Of a stretch of 51,756 nt of DNA, positions 20,073 through 27,865 are shown piece by piece (within the stretch, counting starts at the first letter, position 1; every line of letters begins with the position of its first letter). The position numbers were made by a program, and so were the translations under genes. The stretch lies in contig NZ_MDSS02000022.1 in assembly GCF_001758425.2 (NCBI RefSeq), positions 1 to 51,756 on the forward strand. Reading direction: 5' to 3'. This DNA comes from Nesterenkonia sp. PF2B19 (GTDB taxonomy: Bacteria; Actinomycetota; Actinomycetes; Actinomycetales; Micrococcaceae). The notes under the pieces are model-generated. The model had not been told where the DNA came from. It ran no database searches and was given only the letters and a program-made list of their open reading frames with translations.

Positions 20073-20957
20073 TCATCGTGTCACCTTGCGCGGGAACACG
20101 ACCGCGGTGAGCCACACCGCGAGGATCACGAAGCCGAGGCACCAGAGCGGGCCGCCCCACCAGGTCGAGGGAACCTCCGTCCCGGTGATCAGCGCGCGGG
20201 CGGCATCGATGATGGGTGTCATCGGCTGGTGCTGTGCGAAGCCCTGCAGCCATCCGGGCATCGTCTCCACGGGCGCGAAGCCGCTGGAGACATAGGGCAG
20301 GAACAGCAGGATGAACCCGTAGCCGTTGGCCGACTCCGCCGAACCGGAGATCAGCCCCAGCAGGGCGAAGACGCAGGTGATGGCCAGGATCCAGAGGGCG
20401 ATGAGCCCCACTGCTCCCAGCAGCTGGGGCAGGCCCGCATCCGTGCGGAAGCCGACGGCGAAGGCCACCCCGAGCACCACGGCTGTGGCCAGCAGGTTGC
20501 GCACCATGGAGGCCACCGTGTGGCCCAGCAGCACCGTGACCGCCGGGAAGGGCATGGTCCGCAGCCGGTCCATGAAGCCGGTGGTGACGTCGTTGCTGAC
20601 GACGACGGCGGTGTGGGAGGCGCCGAATCCGGCGGCGGTCAGCGCGATGGCCGGCAGCACGAAGGCCAGGTAGTCGGCCCGGCTGCCGTCCCCGATCGCC
20701 ATGGCCTCCCCCATGACGAAGGTGAAGATCAGCATGAGCATGACCGGCAGCAGCACGGCCATCAGCACGGACTCCACGTCCCGGAAGGAATGACGGAGAC
20801 TGCGCAGAGAGAACTGCGTCAGGCCTGTCAGCAGCCCGGCTCCGGGCGCCCCAGGGGGAACCCGAGTCGGTGTCTGCGGCATCTCGGCGCCCTCGGCGCC
20901 CTGGTGTTGACGGGCGGGCCGGACGGCGGCGAGCTCGTCGGTGCTCGTACTGGTCAT
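20073..20957 (-). CDS. ABC-2 type permease (DrrB-like)
   Basis: A 294-residue integral membrane component of a drug or lipid exporter. About 45 cytoplasmic residues precede six helices. FRDVESVLMAVLLPVMLMLIFTFVMGEA, RLRTMPFPAVTVLLGHTVASMVRNL and FLPYVSSGFAPVETMPGWLQGFAQHQPMTPIIDAAR are typical of DrrB-type permeases. The start overlaps the ATPase gene by 4 nt, so the two are translationally coupled and form one exporter controlled by the divergent TetR gene. Confidence 0.92.
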   Translation of the reverse strand: MTSTSTDELAAVRPARQHQGAEGAEMPQTPTRVPPGAPGAGLLTGLTQFSLRSLRHSFRDVESVLMAVLLPVMLMLIFTFVMGEAMAIGDGSRADYLAFVLPAIALTAAGFGASHTAVVVSNDVTTGFMDRLRTMPFPAVTVLLGHTVASMVRNLLATAVVLGVAFAVGFRTDAGLPQLLGAVGLIALWILAITCVFALLGLISGSAESANGYGFILLFLPYVSSGFAPVETMPGWLQGFAQHQPMTPIIDAARALITGTEVPSTWWGGPLWCLGFVILAVWLTAVVFPRKVTR

Positions 20958-21889
20958 GACAGGGCCTCCTCGGTGATCTGATCGGTGGGCGGGGCGCCGG
21001 TGAGCTGGAGGAAGACCTCGTCCAGGCTGGGGCGACGCACCGTGACACGCATGCCCGGGCGGGACTCAGCGATGCCGTGCAGCACCCGCGCGACGTCGTC
21101 GACCTCTCCCCCGGTGGGGATCTCCTCACAGACGTGCCCGGCGTCGTCGCGCAGTTCGATGGTGGAGCCGCCCACCTGCGCCTTGAGCTCCTCGGCAGTG
21201 CCCCTGGCGATGATCCGACCGCCGTGGAGCACCAGGACCTGATCGGCCAGGACGTCGGCCTCCTCGAGGTACTGGGTGGTCAGGAACACGGAGGTGCCCT
21301 GGTCGGCGAGGGCCTGGATCTCATCCCAGAGCGCCTGACGGCTCCGTGTGTCGAGCCCGGTGGTGGGCTCGTCCAGGAACAGCAGCCGCGGCTCGGGGAT
21401 CAGCCCGACGGCGATGTCCAGCTTTCTGCGCATGCCTCCCGAGTACGTGCCGGCCCGGCGGCGGGCGTGCTCGGTGAGGCCGAACCTCGCCAGCAGCGTC
21501 TCGGACCGCTCGCGGGCTCGGGACCGGGACAGTCCGAACAGGCGGCCCATGAGCTGCATGTTCTCCTCCCCGGAGAGGGACTCGTCGACCGCGGCATGCT
21601 GACCGGTCAGGGAGATCAGCCGCTGCAGTCGCCGCCGATCGGCCCAGGGATCCAGTCCGAGCACCCGCACCTCGCCTGAGTCCCGGGGGATCAGGGTGGA
21701 CAGGATCGAGACGAACGTGGTCTTGCCGGCGCCGTTGGGACCCAGCAAGGCGTGGACGCCCGGGGGCAGTGACAGGGTGAGGTCGTCCAGGACTCGATGG
21801 CGTCCGTGGCTCTTCCTCAGCCCGGTGACATGGATGAGCGGAGGGGCGTCCTCCGGCGCGGCCGCGCCGCGACTGTCTGTGTACGTCAT
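20954..21889 (-). CDS. ABC transporter ATP-binding protein (DrrA-like)
   Basis: A 311-residue ATPase that drives the adjacent permease. Walker A is LGPNGAGKTT, the signature is YSGGMRRKLDIA, Walker B is LLFLDEPTTGLD, and the switch region is STIELRDD onward with the DrrA-type C-terminal extension (RRPSLDEVFLQLTG). The start is taken at ATG 21889; the frame is open 14 codons further, but that stretch is the operator. With -10 near 21903-21908 the transcript would begin only a few bases before the ATG, so it may be leaderless. Confidence 0.92.
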   Translation of the reverse strand: MTYTDSRGAAAPEDAPPLIHVTGLRKSHGRHRVLDDLTLSLPPGVHALLGPNGAGKTTFVSILSTLIPRDSGEVRVLGLDPWADRRRLQRLISLTGQHAAVDESLSGEENMQLMGRLFGLSRSRARERSETLLARFGLTEHARRRAGTYSGGMRRKLDIAVGLIPEPRLLFLDEPTTGLDTRSRQALWDEIQALADQGTSVFLTTQYLEEADVLADQVLVLHGGRIIARGTAEELKAQVGGSTIELRDDAGHVCEEIPTGGEVDDVARVLHGIAESRPGMRVTVRRPSLDEVFLQLTGAPPTDQITEEALS

Positions 21890-21925
21890 ACATAGAGTAT
21901 GACATACACAGTGTAGTTCGTACAC
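21878..21925. promoter_or_regulatory. TetR operator and promoter of the DrrAB-like exporter
   Basis: Two palindromes lie side by side. At 21878-21910, TGTGTACGTCATAC and GTATGACATACACA form 14-bp arms with one mismatch and a 5-nt spacer. At 21911-21925, GTGTA and TACAC flank 5 nt. On the minus strand TTGACT (21926-21931) with a -10 about 17-18 nt away places the exporter promoter inside both. Repression by the TetR protein encoded at 21961 is the natural reading. Confidence 0.82.
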
Positions 21926-21960
21926 AGTCAATGTCAGGTGGTACTCGTCCAGGTGAGAGA

Positions 21961-22758
21961 ATGCACGTCATGGTCGACACCACTGAGACAGGCCTCCCCC
22001 GCGCGGTCGCCGTCGCCTGGGGCATGCAGGAGACGCCGCAGCGCGGCCCGAGCCGCGGCCTGAGCCATGAGCGGATCGTGGCCGCTGCGGTCCGCATCGC
22101 CGACGAGGAGGGCCTGGCCGCCGTCACGATGCAGGCCGTGGCGAAGTCCTTGGGATTCACCACGATGTCGCTGTACCGCTATGTCTCCGGCAAGGAGGAG
22201 ATGCTGCAGCTCATGGGTGATGCGGCCGCGCGGCTCTCTGAGAAGGTCACGCTCGATCCCGACTGGCGCCAGGCGCTCCGACAATGGGCCGCGCTGATCC
22301 GCGAGGCCTGGCGGGCCCACCCCTGGCTCCGCGAGATCCCCCGGGGACAGGTCTCGGTGCTGATGCCCAACCAGATGCGCCTCGCCGACCTCGGGCTCCA
22401 GGCTCTGGAGTCCCTGCCCCTGACCAGGGACGACAAGATCGGCGTCATTCTCGTGGTCTCCCAGCACGTGGCCTCGATGACCGAGCTGGAGCTCGCCCTG
22501 GCGCAGGAGGGCCAGCTGACCGTCACCGAGGAGGGCGCCGCGATGCTCAAGGAGGTCATCACCGAAGAGCGCTACCCCCACGTGGCTCCGCTCTATCAGG
22601 CCGGCGACTACTCGCCGGGGTCCACCGCCTCACCCCCAGCCACTGACGAACCCCCGGTGGAGAACGTCGAGGCGGAGTACGACCTCGGTCTGGACCTGAT
22701 CATCGCGGGCCTGGAGTCCCGCGCCGGCGGCGCTGCGGAGACGGCGACTCGACACTGA
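21961..22758 (+). CDS. TetR-family transcriptional regulator
   Basis: A 265-residue repressor with an N-terminal HTH (about residues 40-85: ERIVAAAVRIADEEGLAAVTMQAVAKSLGFTTMSLYRYVSGKEEML) and a TetR C-terminal ligand domain of the TetR_C_1 type often paired with DrrAB exporters. ATG 21961 has AGGTGAG 3 nt upstream; upstream frame sequence is operator DNA. It is divergent from the exporter across two operators and probably also represses itself, responding to a substrate of the pump. Confidence 0.92.
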   Translation: MHVMVDTTETGLPRAVAVAWGMQETPQRGPSRGLSHERIVAAAVRIADEEGLAAVTMQAVAKSLGFTTMSLYRYVSGKEEMLQLMGDAAARLSEKVTLDPDWRQALRQWAALIREAWRAHPWLREIPRGQVSVLMPNQMRLADLGLQALESLPLTRDDKIGVILVVSQHVASMTELELALAQEGQLTVTEEGAAMLKEVITEERYPHVAPLYQAGDYSPGSTASPPATDEPPVENVEAEYDLGLDLIIAGLESRAGGAAETATRH

Positions 22759-23694: not shown

Positions 23695-24123
23695 ATGGCT
23701 GTCGCGCTGACCCCCTACCTGCAGCTCCCCGGCACCGCCCGCGAGGCGCTCGAGACCTACCATGCCGTGTTCGGCGGAGAGCTGGGCATGCTCACCTACG
23801 GCGAAGGCATGGGGGTCGACGACCAGAACAAGGACAGCATCATGCACGGTTCGCTCTTCGTGGACCGCGGCCTGCACGTGATGGCCTCCGACCTGCCGCC
23901 CGGGATGGAGAGCAACGGGCTGGGCACCATCGCGCTCAGCGTCAACGAGCCCGACGCCTCGGAGAACACGAAGCTCGAACGCTGGTGGAACGACCTGAGC
24001 GAGCACTCCGAGGTCCTCATGCCGCTGGAACGCGCACCCTGGGGTGACCGGTTCGGCATGCTGAAGGACCGGTTCGGGGTCACCTGGATGTTCAACACCG
24101 CCGAGACCGCCTCGCAAGGCTGA
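23695..24123 (+). CDS. VOC-family (PhnB/glyoxalase-like) protein
   Basis: A 142-residue two-module beta-alpha-beta-beta-beta protein. TPYLQLPGTAREALETYHAVFGGELGMLTYGE, and the ending APWGDRFGMLKDRFGVTWMFN, are the PhnB/3-demethylubiquinone-like subgroup signature. Members bind a metal or small ligand; the substrate is not known. ATG 23695 has AGGAAGG 7 nt upstream. The 290 bp before it contain no recognisable gene. It ends 35 nt before the erm leader peptide, inside the palindrome GGCTGATCAGCC. Confidence 0.88.
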   Translation: MAVALTPYLQLPGTAREALETYHAVFGGELGMLTYGEGMGVDDQNKDSIMHGSLFVDRGLHVMASDLPPGMESNGLGTIALSVNEPDASENTKLERWWNDLSEHSEVLMPLERAPWGDRFGMLKDRFGVTWMFNTAETASQG

Positions 24124-24158
24124 TCAGCCCCAGACCGGCCTCTGCTATCCTCATGCCC

Positions 24159-24233
24159 ATGGGTTCCTTCAACGCCATCTACATCATCGCCGTGGCCCGT
24201 CCCCGCACGGGCTCAGCGGCGATGAGCAGCTGA
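24159..24233 (+). CDS. Erm leader peptide with IAVA stall motif
   Basis: A 24-codon frame beginning MGSFNAIYIIAVARPRTG and ending with TGA at 24231-24233. It lies 240 nt upstream of the erm start. Its start resembles the ErmC leader (MGIFSIFVI...) and its core IAVA resembles the IAVV of ErmA-type leaders; in those systems macrolide-bound ribosomes stall at such sequences and free the methyltransferase ribosome site. TATCCT at 24145-24150 is a likely -10, so the mRNA would start very close to the leader ATG (also an in-frame ATG at 24153). The role is inferred by analogy. Confidence 0.78.
   Translation: MGSFNAIYIIAVARPRTGSAAMSS
24195..24212 (+). promoter_or_regulatory. Hairpin at the leader-peptide stall site
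   Basis: GCCCGT and ACGGGC form a perfect 6-bp stem with a 6-nt loop, starting just after the codons for IAV. A ribosome paused at IAVA would open it. It is therefore a candidate first element of the erm attenuator, whose alternative pairings include CTCGAGG 24236-24242 with CCTCGAG 24285-24291. Confidence 0.55.
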
Positions 24234-24444
24234 ACCTCGAGGCGTGGTCGCGGCACGTCCGCGCTCGGCGCTGATCTAGGCGTCCCTCGAGCTCCGTCTC
24301 TTCCCGTAGTCCACCGCTGGCCTCTGCCTGCCTGCGCGCCCGCGCGCCGTCGGCAGCCCTGCCCTGGTGACCCGGACGAGTCCCTGATGCTCTCCCGCCG
24401 CCGCAGCTGACCACCACGCTGCGCGGCGCCTCGTGCTGCCCAGC

Positions 24445-24476
24445 GTGATCCCTGCGCGATCTGGAGATCACTTGTG
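24445..24476 (+). promoter_or_regulatory. Erm ribosome-binding site with sequestering hairpin
   Basis: GTGATC (24445-24450) can pair with GATCAC (24466-24471), enclosing the Shine-Dalgarno GGAG (24463-24466). The GTG start follows 7 nt after it. TGATCT at 24272-24277 is a competing partner for the same AGATCA. Such sequestration is what translational attenuation of erm genes requires. Confidence 0.5.
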
Positions 24477-25238
24477 CACACCTATGCCCACAGCCGTCAC
24501 GAACACGGCCAGAACTTCCTCATCGACCCCCGCGCCATCCGGACCGTGGTGGCGCTCGTCGCCCGCACCGAGGGCCCGATCCTGGAGATCGGCCCCGGAG
24601 ACGGCGCCCTGACCCTGCCGTTGCAGACGCTGAGACGCCCCCTCACCGCAGTGGAGATCGACACCCGCGCGGCCCGGCGTCTGGACCAGCGCACCGGCCG
24701 ACGCACCCGGGTGGTCGAAGGGGACTTCCTCACCCACCGTCTCCCCCGGGAGCCCCACGTGGTGGTCGGCAACCTCCCCTTTCACCTGACGACGGCGATC
24801 CTGCGGCGGCTGCTCTATGCCCCCGGCTGGACCGATGCCGTGCTGATGACCCAATGGGAGGTCGCCCGCCGACGTGCCGGCGTCGGGGGATCCACCATGA
24901 TGACCGCCCAATGGGCCCCGTACTACGCATTCAGGTTGGAGGGACGGATCCCCGCGTCGGCGTATCGACCCCGCCCTGCCGTGGACGGCGGACTGCTGAC
25001 CATCGCACGGCGGGAGCGCCCTCTGGTCCCCCACACGGACCGGAGAGCGTATGCGGCCTTCGTCCACCGGGCGTTCACCGGACCGGGCCGCGGCATGGGG
25101 CAGATCCTGCAGCACGGCCTCGGACTGTCACGCCGCGAGGTGGGCCCGCTGTTGGGCGCTGCGGGGGTGCGTCGCGATGCTGCCCCCGGCCGTCTGACTG
25201 CTGAGCAGTGGGCCGCCCTCTGGCGGCGGGCCCCCTGA
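24474..25238 (+). CDS. erm: 23S rRNA (adenine-N6)-dimethyltransferase Erm
   Basis: A 254-residue SAM-dependent enzyme that methylates A2058 of 23S rRNA and confers macrolide-lincosamide-streptogramin B resistance. HGQNFLIDPRAI opens the protein; motif I is EIGPGDG (residues 38-44); the catalytic motif IV is NLPF (100-103), followed by HLTTAILRRLLYAPGWTDAVLMTQWEVARRRAGVGG. These stretches look like actinobacterial Erm enzymes (Erm(X)/Erm(36)-like) and not like the housekeeping KsgA. Base composition matches its neighbours and no mobile element is nearby, so it looks resident. Expression is probably inducible through the upstream leader. Confidence 0.94.
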   Translation: MHTYAHSRHEHGQNFLIDPRAIRTVVALVARTEGPILEIGPGDGALTLPLQTLRRPLTAVEIDTRAARRLDQRTGRRTRVVEGDFLTHRLPREPHVVVGNLPFHLTTAILRRLLYAPGWTDAVLMTQWEVARRRAGVGGSTMMTAQWAPYYAFRLEGRIPASAYRPRPAVDGGLLTIARRERPLVPHTDRRAYAAFVHRAFTGPGRGMGQILQHGLGLSRREVGPLLGAAGVRRDAAPGRLTAEQWAALWRRAP

Positions 25239-25275
25239 CTCGGTCAGCGCAGGGTTCAGTCGGTCGACCCTGGGC

Positions 25276-26475
25276 TCAGCCGCGGTGGAAGGCCACGATC
25301 CGGTCGAGACCCTCGGCGACGGCGGTCGGCCCCGGTGCCAGGGACAGGCGCACCCACTCGTGACCGGTCACGGGATCGAAGTCAGTGCCGGGGACGATCG
25401 CCACCCCGGCCTGCTGCAGGACCGCCTGGCAGTAGGCCGGGGAGTCCCCGAACTCCGCCAGGTGCTCGCCGATGTGCGCGTAGACGTAGAACGCGCCGTC
25501 GGCGGGCGCCAGCTGGCCCCAGCCGAGCTCCGACAGCCGGTCCAGCACCAGCTGACGGGCAGAGGCGTACTGCTCCACCTGTGCTCCGGCGAAATCCATC
25601 GACTCCGAGCTGAAGGCCTCCACGGCGGCCAACTGGGAGCCGTGCGGCGGACACAGGGAGACGTTGCCGGCCAGCCGCGAGACCGGATCCACCAGATGCT
25701 CCGGCAGGACCGCCCAGCCCAGGCGCCAGCCGGGCATGCCCCAGTACTTGGAGAACGAGGACACCACGACGGCGTCGTCGGTCAGTTCCAGTGCGCTCAC
25801 CCCGGGAGACGGGCGACCGGTGGCCGGACCGGCCCCTCCATAGGTGATGCCGTGATAGATCTCATCGCTGACCAGGTGCACGTCCTGCTCCCGGCACCAG
25901 TCCACCAGAGAGGTGAGCTCCTCACGGCCGATCATGGTGCCGGTGGGATTGGCCGGGGACGCGAGGATGAGCCCGGACAGCGGGCCGCCGTCGGCCGCCG
26001 CCTGCTCCAGGAGCTCCACGGTGGGCTGGAAGCGGACCTCAGGGCCGCAGTCCAGATCCACCACCTCGATGCCGAGGCTGGCCAGGATGTTCCGGTAGGC
26101 GGGATAGCCGGGCCGGGCGAGCGCCACGCGGTCGCCCGCGTCGAAGGCCGCCAGGAAGCTCAACAGGAACGCCCCGGATGACCCGGTGGTGATGGCCACC
26201 CGCTCGACGTCGACCTGGACGCCGTACCAGTCGGCGTAGTGGGCGGCCACGGCCTCCCGCAGCGGCCGGATCCCCAGCGCGGCGCTGTAGTTGAGCACCG
26301 TGCCCTGGGCGTGGATCTCCGCGGCGGCGCGATTGACCGCCGGAGGAGCGCCCGAGCCTGGCTCGCCGGCGGTCAGCGAGACGACGTCGCGGCCCTGCGC
26401 GCGCAGGGCATCGATCTGAGCGAGGATGCTCATCACCTGAAAGCCGGGGACCTCGGAGCGCTGCGACGGTTTCAT
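25276..26475 (-). CDS. Class I/II pyridoxal-phosphate aminotransferase
   Basis: A 399-residue fold-type I enzyme. The PLP lysine lies in VVVSSFSKYWGMPGWRLGW; SPANPTGTMIGREEL and HLVSDEIYHGITYGG carry the cofactor-binding Asn and Asp/Tyr; the terminal Arg is in HEWVRLSLA. It resembles AspC-like or valine-pyruvate-type transaminases of actinobacteria; substrate unknown. The frame extends upstream to 26706 without protein character; ATG 26475 begins the conserved part. It is convergent with erm, with 37 nt between stops. Confidence 0.88.
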   Translation of the reverse strand: MKPSQRSEVPGFQVMSILAQIDALRAQGRDVVSLTAGEPGSGAPPAVNRAAAEIHAQGTVLNYSAALGIRPLREAVAAHYADWYGVQVDVERVAITTGSSGAFLLSFLAAFDAGDRVALARPGYPAYRNILASLGIEVVDLDCGPEVRFQPTVELLEQAAADGGPLSGLILASPANPTGTMIGREELTSLVDWCREQDVHLVSDEIYHGITYGGAGPATGRPSPGVSALELTDDAVVVSSFSKYWGMPGWRLGWAVLPEHLVDPVSRLAGNVSLCPPHGSQLAAVEAFSSESMDFAGAQVEQYASARQLVLDRLSELGWGQLAPADGAFYVYAHIGEHLAEFGDSPAYCQAVLQQAGVAIVPGTDFDPVTGHEWVRLSLAPGPTAVAEGLDRIVAFHRG

Positions 26476-26519: not shown

Positions 26520-27865
26520 TCAGTCCTCGGCGGCGGCGAGCTGGCCGCAGGCGCCGTCGATCTCCTTGCCGCGGGTGTCCCGCAGCGTGGTGGGCACACC
26601 CTTGGCCTCGAGCCGTGCGATGAACTCCTGCATGACCTCCGGCTCGGAGGACGTCCAGATGGAGCCCGGGGTGGGGTTCAGCGGGATCGGGTTCACGTGC
26701 ACCCATCCCCGCCCGCGGGCGTTGAGCTTGTCCGCCAGCAGGTCCGCGCGCCAGCCGTGGTCGTTCATGTCCTTGATGAGCGCATACTCGATGGAGACCC
26801 GCCGGCCGGTGGTCTCGTAGTAGTAGTACGCGGCATCGATCGCCTCGTCGGCCTTCCAGCGCGAGTTCACCGGGATGAGCTCGTCGCGCAGCTCGTCGTC
26901 GGGGGCGTGGAGGCTCAGGGCGAACGTGATCGGCAGGTCCTCATCGGCCAGCTTCCGGATCGCCGGCACCAGGCCGACGGTGGAGATGGTGATGCCCCGG
27001 GCGCTCATCCCCAGGCCCTCGGGGGCGTCATCGATCATCCGGTGCACCGCATTCATCACCCGCTTGTAGTTCGCCAGCGGCTCACCCATGCCCATGAAGA
27101 CGATGTTGGAGACCCGCTGCGGACCGGTGCGCTGCGTCCCGCCCGCGGCAGGCTCAGGCCCCTCCTCGGCGAAGTCGGTCTCCTCACCGAGGCCGGCGTG
27201 GTCCCGCTCCTCGGCGATCTCCGCCGCACTGGGGGCGTCGAGTTCTCCGGCGGCGATGGCCCGGTTCGCCTGGACGATCTGGTCCACGATCTCCGCGGTG
27301 GACATATTGCGGGTGAGCCCGTTCTGGCCGGTGGCGCAGAAGGGGCAGTTCATCCCGCAGCCGCACTGGGAGGAGATGCACAGGGTGATGCGGTTCCGGT
27401 ACCGCATCAGCACCGACTCCACCAGGCGCCGTCGAAGAGCCGCCAGAGGAACTTGATGGTGGCGCCGTCGTCGGTGCGCAGCCGACGGACCTCGGTCAGC
27501 AGCGGCGGCAGGAACTCGGAGACCATCGCCTCCCGCGTGGCCGCCGGCAGGTCCGTCATCTCTGAGGGGTCCGAGGTGTAGTGCTGGAAGTAGTGCACGG
27601 AGAGCTGCTTGGCCCGGAAGCCCGGGTAGCCCAGCTCCTTGGCGCGAGCGATGCGCTCCTCCAGGCTCATGTCCGCCAGGTGCTTGGGCGGCTGGGTGAC
27701 ACGTGCGGACTGGGCGAACTGCAGCTGCGGGCGCCCGTCGGGACCCATGGGCTGCTTCCACCCCTCCGGCTTGGGCCGGACCTGAGGGCGGGCATCGTCG
27801 GCACGGGTGGGGCGCTGCGCCGCGGCCGCGCGCGGCGTCTCCGGGTTCTTCGGTGAAGTCGACAT
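26520..27865 (-). CDS. rlmN: 23S rRNA (adenine-C2)-methyltransferase RlmN (frameshifted)
   Basis: A radical-SAM enzyme that methylates A2503 of 23S rRNA and A37 of certain tRNAs. The N-terminal part ([26 protein letters not shown]) runs to FLWRLFDGA, where one base is missing near 27423-27430; [16 protein letters not shown] continues in the other frame with the cluster motif [10 protein letters not shown] and later [14 protein letters not shown]. Restoring it gives 448 residues. A 40-residue acidic insert before [10 protein letters not shown] is common in Micrococcales. The first 60 residues are a disordered extension. ATG 27865 is assumed; GTG 27871 is possible. Confidence 0.92.

Follow-up and report, generated by a model that had tools for sequence, protein, structure and literature searches.

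A putative leaderless leader with an Arg-Pro-Arg motif upstream of a chromosomal erm gene in Nesterenkonia, and related leaders in actinobacteria

Introduction

The well-studied erm attenuators come from Firmicutes and have a leader that is led by a Shine-Dalgarno sequence. ErmC and ErmA, whose leaders carry the motifs IFVI and IAVV, respectively, follow this arrangement. In actinobacteria, leaders with the residues Arg-Leu-Arg (RLR) are found in front of erm, for example MLISGTAFLRLRTNR in Corynebacterium and MLISDTAFLRLRSNR in Rothia nasimurium, which we take to be of the Erm(X) type. According to excerpts of PMC8298421, Arg-Leu-Arg is also present in ErmDL, the leader of ermD, for which a stall-driven refolding has been proposed. 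Erythromycin-dependent arrest motifs given in excerpts of PMC6238534 are +X(+), the general XP(X), +X(W) and XP(W), and the excerpts of PMC8298421 add X+P to them. Ribosome-mediated attenuation of ribosome-protection genes in actinobacteria appears in excerpts on lmrC, tiaA and are5sc of Streptomyces (PMC8546547, PMC12421871). As described there, the uORFs of tiaA and are5sc have ribosome binding sites and stalling takes place at the start codon with lincosamide-type drugs, not with erythromycin.

Among the open-licence PubMed Central articles covered, judged by title, abstract opening or excerpts, none describes leaderless erm leaders or such an RNA in actinobacteria, and the text of PMC11264731 makes no mention of actinobacteria, ermX, IAVV, RLR, Streptomyces or leaderless. 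The uORF4u tool, according to excerpts of its description, includes a Shine-Dalgarno search for prokaryotic uORFs. Because searches of this type look for a Shine-Dalgarno sequence, a class of leaderless leaders may have been overlooked.

Here, we have analysed a leader upstream of erm in a window of 51,756 nucleotides from Nesterenkonia sp. PF2B19 (contig 49 of a 3.7 Mb genome). The leader resembles the actinobacterial RLR leaders in that it is short, starts right after a -10 box, has an RxR motif near its end and is followed by the same order of RNA segments. However, it is longer than these, with RPR followed by 8 more codons and about 130 extra bases between segments 2 and 3. With ErmDL it shares, as far as the excerpts go, a +X+ motif in a leader located before erm, although X is Pro in the window and Leu in ErmDL, the comparison covering the motif. 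With the ErmC and ErmA leaders it has in common the principle of attenuation by alternative hairpins, while the motifs of those leaders do not belong to the conserved part of window-type leaders. The uORFs of tiaA and are5sc differ from it in their ribosome binding sites and in the site and drug of stalling. This kind of attenuation is itself known; new here would be the probable leaderless start, the proposed RNA relay and the sharing among unrelated resistance genes.

Results

The erm gene and the sample of relatives

Features of the locus are collected in Table 1. An intact 23S rRNA methyltransferase gene is present, whose product scores 264 bits against the curated family NF000499 (cut-off 212) and is therefore an Erm methyltransferase. 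The top-scoring models are those of Erm(46), Erm(38) and Erm(55), each below its own cut-off. The region under study starts at 24124, the first base 3' of the upstream VOC gene, and 240 bases separate the end of the leader ORF from the start of erm.

Table 1. Features of the leader region and erm in the window.
Feature	Position	Strand	Details
-10 box TATCCT (TANNNT) of the leader promoter	24146..24151	+	ends 7 nt 5' of the leader ATG
Leader ORF MGSFNAIYIIAVARPRTGSAAMSS, probably leaderless	24159..24233	+	24 sense codons; ATG 24159, stop TGA 24231-24233
Hairpin 1:2; includes segment 1, over the arrest codons, and the beginning of segment 2 (about 24216-24230)	24184..24225	+	minimum-energy folds
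Putative macrolide arrest motif Arg14-Pro15-Arg16 (CGT CCC CGC)	24198..24206	+	Pro15 would sit in the P site and Arg16 in the A site
Segment 3 (TGCTCTCCCGCCGC...GCAGC)	24388..24407	+	folds: with segment 2 if the ribosome is stalled, else with segment 4
Segment 4 (GCTGCGCGGCG; GCYGGGCGG in most aligned relatives)	24418..24428	+	held-out covariance-model match
Segment 5 (GTGCTGCCCAGCGTGATC), partner of segment 4 or segment 6	24433..24450	+	covariance model
Segment 6, including the erm Shine-Dalgarno GGAG (24463-24466)	24461..24471	+	exact inverted repeat GTGATC/GATCAC
erm, 23S rRNA adenine N6-methyltransferase, 254 aa	24474..25238	+	GTG start; NCBIfam NF000499 match

Within the genus, erm is present in 12 of the 30 genomes (E <= 1e-30). 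By coordinates, it adjoins an aminotransferase gene of the window type in three of them (G029, G007 and G021) and lies within about 4 kb of it in four others (G004, G005, G010 and G013), while in the remaining four the two genes are on separate contigs. This shared neighbourhood suggests that erm is a chromosomal gene of the genus. The leader peptide in G029 is identical to that of the window, with an Erm that is 77% identical. A second, distant Erm match in the same genome as the window (L002, G000:C84:18284-19000; 36% identity) is probably the housekeeping KsgA/RsmA. Two other regions of the window were noted near erm: ORFs at 20073-22758 which by eye resemble an ABC transporter permease and ATPase beside a divergent TetR-like regulator, a possible drug-efflux unit, and an RlmN-like 23S rRNA methyltransferase at 26520-27761 that falls below the curated cut-offs as framed.

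Relatives were taken from a search of 84,980 species genomes, of which the best 80 of 167 matches were kept, and from searches of the genus, family, order and class, in two of which the best 30 of 55 and 30 of 32 were fetched. The resulting 165 erm loci gave 137 distinct upstream regions, 136 of them long enough for use; since the set was seeded with the window Erm, it is biased to the relatives of this protein and is not representative of all Erm.

A short ORF directly behind a promoter

The 24-codon frame reported in the initial annotation is present upstream of the intact erm. A second in-frame ATG is located at 24153, 1 nt 3' of the -10 box. No GGAG-like site occurs in the 20 nt 5' of the leader ATG, so the leader has no Shine-Dalgarno sequence of its own if the -10 box is real. 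Neither a promoter consensus scan nor comparison of the leader promoters reveals a clear -35 in the window.

Short ORFs with the spacing of the window, that is an ATG or GTG 6-8 nt after TANNNT followed by 8-40 codons, are found in 128 of the 136 erm upstream regions, and in 117 of the 136 such an ORF carries R/K-x-R/K/W. The reverse strand yields 5 and 1, respectively, and 20 dinucleotide shuffles yield on average 5.8 promoter-spaced ORFs (maximum 10) and 1.8 motif-bearing ones (maximum 7). Spacing from TANNNT to the start of motif-bearing short ORFs peaks at 7 nt (93), with 14 at 6 nt and 15 at 8 nt. Eight of the 136 regions are without a promoter-spaced leader. At L046, which is scored as a miss in these counts, the promoter rule chose a wrong ORF, and the locus was excluded from the later leader tests; at L042 the rule preferred an overlapping GTG frame to the ATG frame, which makes its row doubtful both here and in the later tests that include it. 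In addition, TANNNT lies 1 nt before the start codon of 17 motif-bearing short ORFs in erm upstream regions.

Comparison of the window with its nearest relative (L003) reveals where conservation begins. Between -60 and -14 the two agree at only 16 of 47 bases, whereas 12 of 13 match at -13 to -1 and 74 of the 75 bases of the leader ORF are identical, the single change being synonymous; the boundary thus falls at the -10 box. Related leaders are also present at the other close Nesterenkonia erm loci. A short conserved ORF therefore stands right before erm behind a promoter, on what would be a shared transcript. Because TANNNT-7-ATG/GTG is kept in relatives and the conservation boundary coincides with the -10 box, transcription probably begins at the leader ATG or beside it and the leader mRNA would thus be leaderless, as the initial annotation had suggested. 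N. halophila has a strong palindrome (L004, 1176-1260) some 20 bp 5' of the leader -10 box; it is likely a hairpin repeat or terminator and gives sub-threshold matches to miRNA families.

The putative arrest motif of the leader peptide

The stall motif was initially annotated as IAVA. IAV is found in 5 of the 11 close Nesterenkonia leaders, against RPR or RPW in all 11 (RPR in four, RPW in seven), and IAVA was rejected as the stall motif; a conserved motif of the IAVV/IFVI type (ErmA/ErmC class) is likewise not observed among these 11 leaders. A search with an IAV/IFV-like pattern missed most relatives, and the broader pattern altered the conclusion on the stall motif. The Arg and Pro codons of RPR/RPW vary synonymously among the close leaders, and a remote member of the genus (L013) has RIR. 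The window, with its RPR, falls in the RLR-like class of leaders defined by R/K-x-R/K or W.

The same motif class is present in 116 of the 128 leaders that were picked by promoter alone, compared with a mean of 45.0 and a maximum of 61 when residues are shuffled. Ten of the 12 leaders without it share the peptide MLISGSVF[M/I]RPLT[S/N]R, which has Arg-Pro only and no +X+ (L062, L065, L067, L072, L079, L081, L086, L088, L093 and L125). Across 88 distinct motif-bearing peptides, the middle residue X is Leu in 28, Pro in 18, Asp in 14 and Ile in 13, with others making up the rest; the motif opens with Arg, coded by CGN or AGG, in 87 peptides and with Lys in 1, and its third residue is Arg in 80 and Trp in 8. 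The first + codon is CGG in 27, CGC in 26, CGT in 24, AGG in 10 and AAG in 1, and this variety points to a constraint at the protein level. The IAVA of the window directly precedes the motif (positions -4 to -1), in a stretch where relatives often have A, V, S or F; A, for instance, is found at -3 in 38 of 87 distinct peptides. To judge from this frequency, these residues may have an auxiliary role in stalling.

The initial annotation had expected the frame to be conserved at the codon level in relatives. This is true of the motif only: outside it the peptide drifts, and whole leaders of five close pairs contain 9 synonymous and 10 non-synonymous codon changes, with no excess of the former. 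Its description of the leader as a blend of an ErmC-like start and an ErmA-like core found no support in the comparison either; the nearest relatives found are the actinobacterial RxR leaders.

RNA segments between the leader and erm

The hairpin noticed at the stall codons (24195-24212; GCCCGT-CCCCGC-ACGGGC) does form in the minimum-energy fold, where it is the tip of the longer stem-loop 1:2. The hairpin reported around the erm Shine-Dalgarno sequence is present as well; the 6-bp inverted repeat GTGATC (24445-24450) and GATCAC (24466-24471) places three bases of GGAG in the loop and the last in the stem. In the window, the 351-nt leader as a whole is of ordinary stability (z -0.94, with 19 of 100 shuffles folding equally well or better), and the 2:3 duplex is matched by 127 of 485 equal-sized blocks in this GC-rich DNA. 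The case for an attenuator therefore rests on relatives. No Rfam 15 family reaches its gathering score in the window, and a search of 10 loci by E-value gave just five sub-threshold miRNA-family matches.

We aligned 35 nonredundant compact leaders out of 80 (32 of them in alignments A1 and A2, from which L013, L042 and L160 were left out) and numbered the segments ourselves. Their order is CGCCGC (1), which lies over the arrest codons, GCGGCGG (2), CCGCCGC..CAGC (3), GCYGGGCGGC (4), GTGCTGCCCGG (5) and CGGAG (6). Pairing of adjacent segments was compared between same-locus and swapped combinations in 42 nonredundant leaders, the segment pattern having matched in 82. Same-locus pairing is stronger for all adjacent pairs, with z of -2.6 (1:2), -6.1 (2:3), -4.6 (3:4), -4.2 (4:5) and -6.5 (5:6), whereas non-adjacent combinations range from -2.3 to +1.8, except for 2:6 at -3.9. 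Reversed controls are about zero for 1:2, 2:3 and 3:4, but are not clean for 4:5 (z -2.8) and 5:6 (z -2.6). The row of the window is uninformative in this test as its segment 3 was misplaced, and its 2:3 pairing was read from the fold. Of all pairs, 2:3 alone gives a clear signal of classical covariation, with 19 double-change cells against at most 17 in shuffles; in the 35 compact leaders 4:5 is paired in 96% of cells, which are mostly invariant.

A covariance model of the 3' part, trained with no Nesterenkonia sequence, has its best match in the window at 24392-24468 (27.2 bits, E 0.0038), the next reaching 18.5 bits (E 0.15). It also matches directly upstream of erm in 8 of the 11 other genus loci, L008-L010 being the exceptions, and gives one extra weak match elsewhere in L013. 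In whole-genome searches with this and the whole-leader model, the copy in the window stays below threshold.

Modelling of a stalled ribosome

Folding with a stalled ribosome masked out changes the mean number of expected pairs in the 35 leaders from 2.35 to 3.99 for 2:3, from 5.47 to 7.64 for 4:5 and from 3.60 to 1.56 for 3:4. Stalling adds more than one 2:3 pair in only 17 of the 35 (0.486). The loss of 1:2 is a consequence of the masking itself, and so is the loss of 2:3 when the ribosome stands at the stop codon. For part of the leaders, modelling and comparison together thus indicate alternative pairing states tied to the position of the ribosome.

The predicted accessibility of the erm Shine-Dalgarno sequence in 116 leaders is 0.22 when free, 0.28 when stalled and 0.25-0.28 for a ribosome placed on the other codons that were tried, so folding with ribosome masking reveals no release specific to the motif. 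The window itself gives 0.32 free and 0.35 stalled. For the 35 compact leaders the mean rises slightly from 0.12 to 0.19, with the site opening by more than 0.1 in 37% and closing by more than 0.1 in 20%. By analogy, Shine-Dalgarno release would be the output step.

Matching leaders upstream of other resistance-type genes

In the class, the 3' model matched 4 of 148 genomes (five matches, E <= 0.001), with two matches before erm and three before MFS genes. With the model of the whole compact leader, 43 matches (E <= 0.01) were obtained, in 39 of 374 genomes. Thirty of these 43 loci were fetched; 14 lie before Erm, several of which are training loci of the model and match by construction, 14 lie before other genes, and at two (L197 and L198) no gene was found by the ORF script.

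Five of the non-erm loci have ABC-F-like genes, in frames cut at the locus end (L175, L182, L186 and L194 by NCBIfam, L183 by its Pfam ABC domain only). Four have DHA2 MFS genes (L180, L188 and L191 by NCBIfam, L189 via the overlapping locus L171), and another four have further MFS genes (L196 and L200 LmrA-like, L192 and L201 compared with Pfam only). The remaining locus, L190, has an Lnu(F)-like gene. For these non-erm genes no listed NCBIfam score reaches its curated cut-off, while Pfam MFS_1, ABC_tran and LinB-like_C pass theirs. L169 is an additional LmrA-like locus, and L170 is also listed among the loci with the leader before other gene types.

In 13 of the 14 non-erm loci the leader starts exactly 7 nt after TANNNT, and none was found in L180. 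Eight of the 13 leaders contain +X(+/W), as RLR, RPR or RPW before ABC-F genes and RVR, RLR or RTR before DHA2 genes. +X+ is absent from the Lnu-type leader and from leaders of the LmrA type, which end in VTR[TA][LPS]R; in the LmrA-like and related MFS loci (L169, L192, L196, L200 and L201) this ending follows an Ala/Cys-rich stretch. VTR[TA][LPS]R is possibly a different arrest signal, perhaps for lincosamides.

Discussion

It is likely that the leader is part of a drug-inducible attenuator before a chromosomal erm, with stalling at Arg14-Pro15-Arg16 on a leaderless leader mRNA. RNA polymerase would start at or beside the leader ATG and ribosomes would load on the leaderless mRNA. A ribosome carrying a macrolide would halt at Arg14-Pro15-Arg16 and cover segment 1, leaving segment 2 to pair with segment 3. 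Segment 4 would thereby become available to segment 5, and segment 6, with the Shine-Dalgarno sequence of erm, would be released. When the drug is absent, the ribosome would run through, 1:2, 3:4 and 5:6 would form and erm would stay low. The spacing between promoter and ORF, the conservation of the arrest motif and the pairing of adjacent segments are the parts backed by comparison, while stalling, induction and release of the Shine-Dalgarno sequence are steps that this scheme would add. The leader looks real and functional, which agrees with the initial reading of a leader-peptide-controlled erm, and from its sequence it would work like an ErmDL-type (+X+) attenuator and not as a member of the IAVV/IFVI type.

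If the output lay instead at the level of transcription, hairpin 3:4 would act as the terminator, and the 2:3 pairing brought about by a stalled ribosome would let the polymerase read into erm. In relatives, the 8 nt that follow segment 4 are enriched in T (mean 2.76, expectation 1.54; at least 4 T in 14 of the 42 nonredundant leaders counted out of 94), though this stretch could also represent the loop of hairpin 4:5. Transcription attenuation would fit with the missing predicted release of the Shine-Dalgarno sequence, and there are precedents in Streptomyces, as excerpts describe transcription attenuation for lmrC and drug-induced transcription for are5sc (PMC8546547, PMC12421871) and the title of a reference cited there names transcriptional attenuation for tlrA. 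However, a terminator scan of the window at 24080-25300 gives no terminator-like site, and cognate 5:6 pairing around the Shine-Dalgarno sequence beats swapped pairing, albeit with a reversed control that is not clean. We regard a transcriptional output as possible but less likely.

An ErmA/ErmC-like stall at IAVA, with RPR kept merely since its codons build the hairpin, appears improbable. IAV runs do recur shortly before the motif in the distant leaders L052, L060, L061 and L085, the frequency of A at -3 could be read in the same way, and a ribosome stopped at IAVA would likewise disturb hairpin 1:2. Against this stand the counts in the close Nesterenkonia leaders and the codons themselves: the third position is CGC or CGT for Arg or TGG for Trp, which keeps an arrest motif despite the codon change, and the first is also AGG, or AAG for Lys, in relatives. 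It is more improbable still that there is no attenuator and that erm is constitutive or regulated by its promoter only, for example through WhiB7, with the ORF as a by-product. WhiB7-type promoters have an A/T-rich element just 5' of a -35. The promoters of 92 distinct erm leaders resemble this type in an A-rich triplet, located at -37 to -35 when counted from the end of the -10 box, and in a weak TTG with a spacer of 18, whereas the window promoter shows neither an A-rich element nor a clear -35. In excerpts of PMC4974804, erythromycin induced 7 of 8 WhiB7-regulon homologues of M. abscessus, a list that includes erm41. However, a promoter alone would not require the conservation seen in the arrest motif, the start spacing and the RNA segments.

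Returning to the proposed attenuator, the occurrence of matching leaders before other genes inclines us, with some reserve, to a broader reading, namely a modular leaderless stall sensor that forms an ancient actinobacterial cassette before Erm, ABC-F, DHA2/LmrA-type efflux and Lnu-type genes, its peptide tuned to the drug class, as with VTR[TA][LPS]R at LmrA-type loci. The cassette would consist of a -10 box fused to the start codon, a peptide of 10-25 codons mostly with +X(+/W) and the six-segment RNA relay. A leaderless leader would mean that the drug is sensed by a ribosome starting at the 5' end of the mRNA. The natural RPR, RPW, RDR, RIR and RLR leaders form a test set for the context specificity of macrolides on actinobacterial ribosomes. 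If the reading is true, one RNA and peptide signature would predict inducible resistance genes of actinobacteria together with the class of drug.
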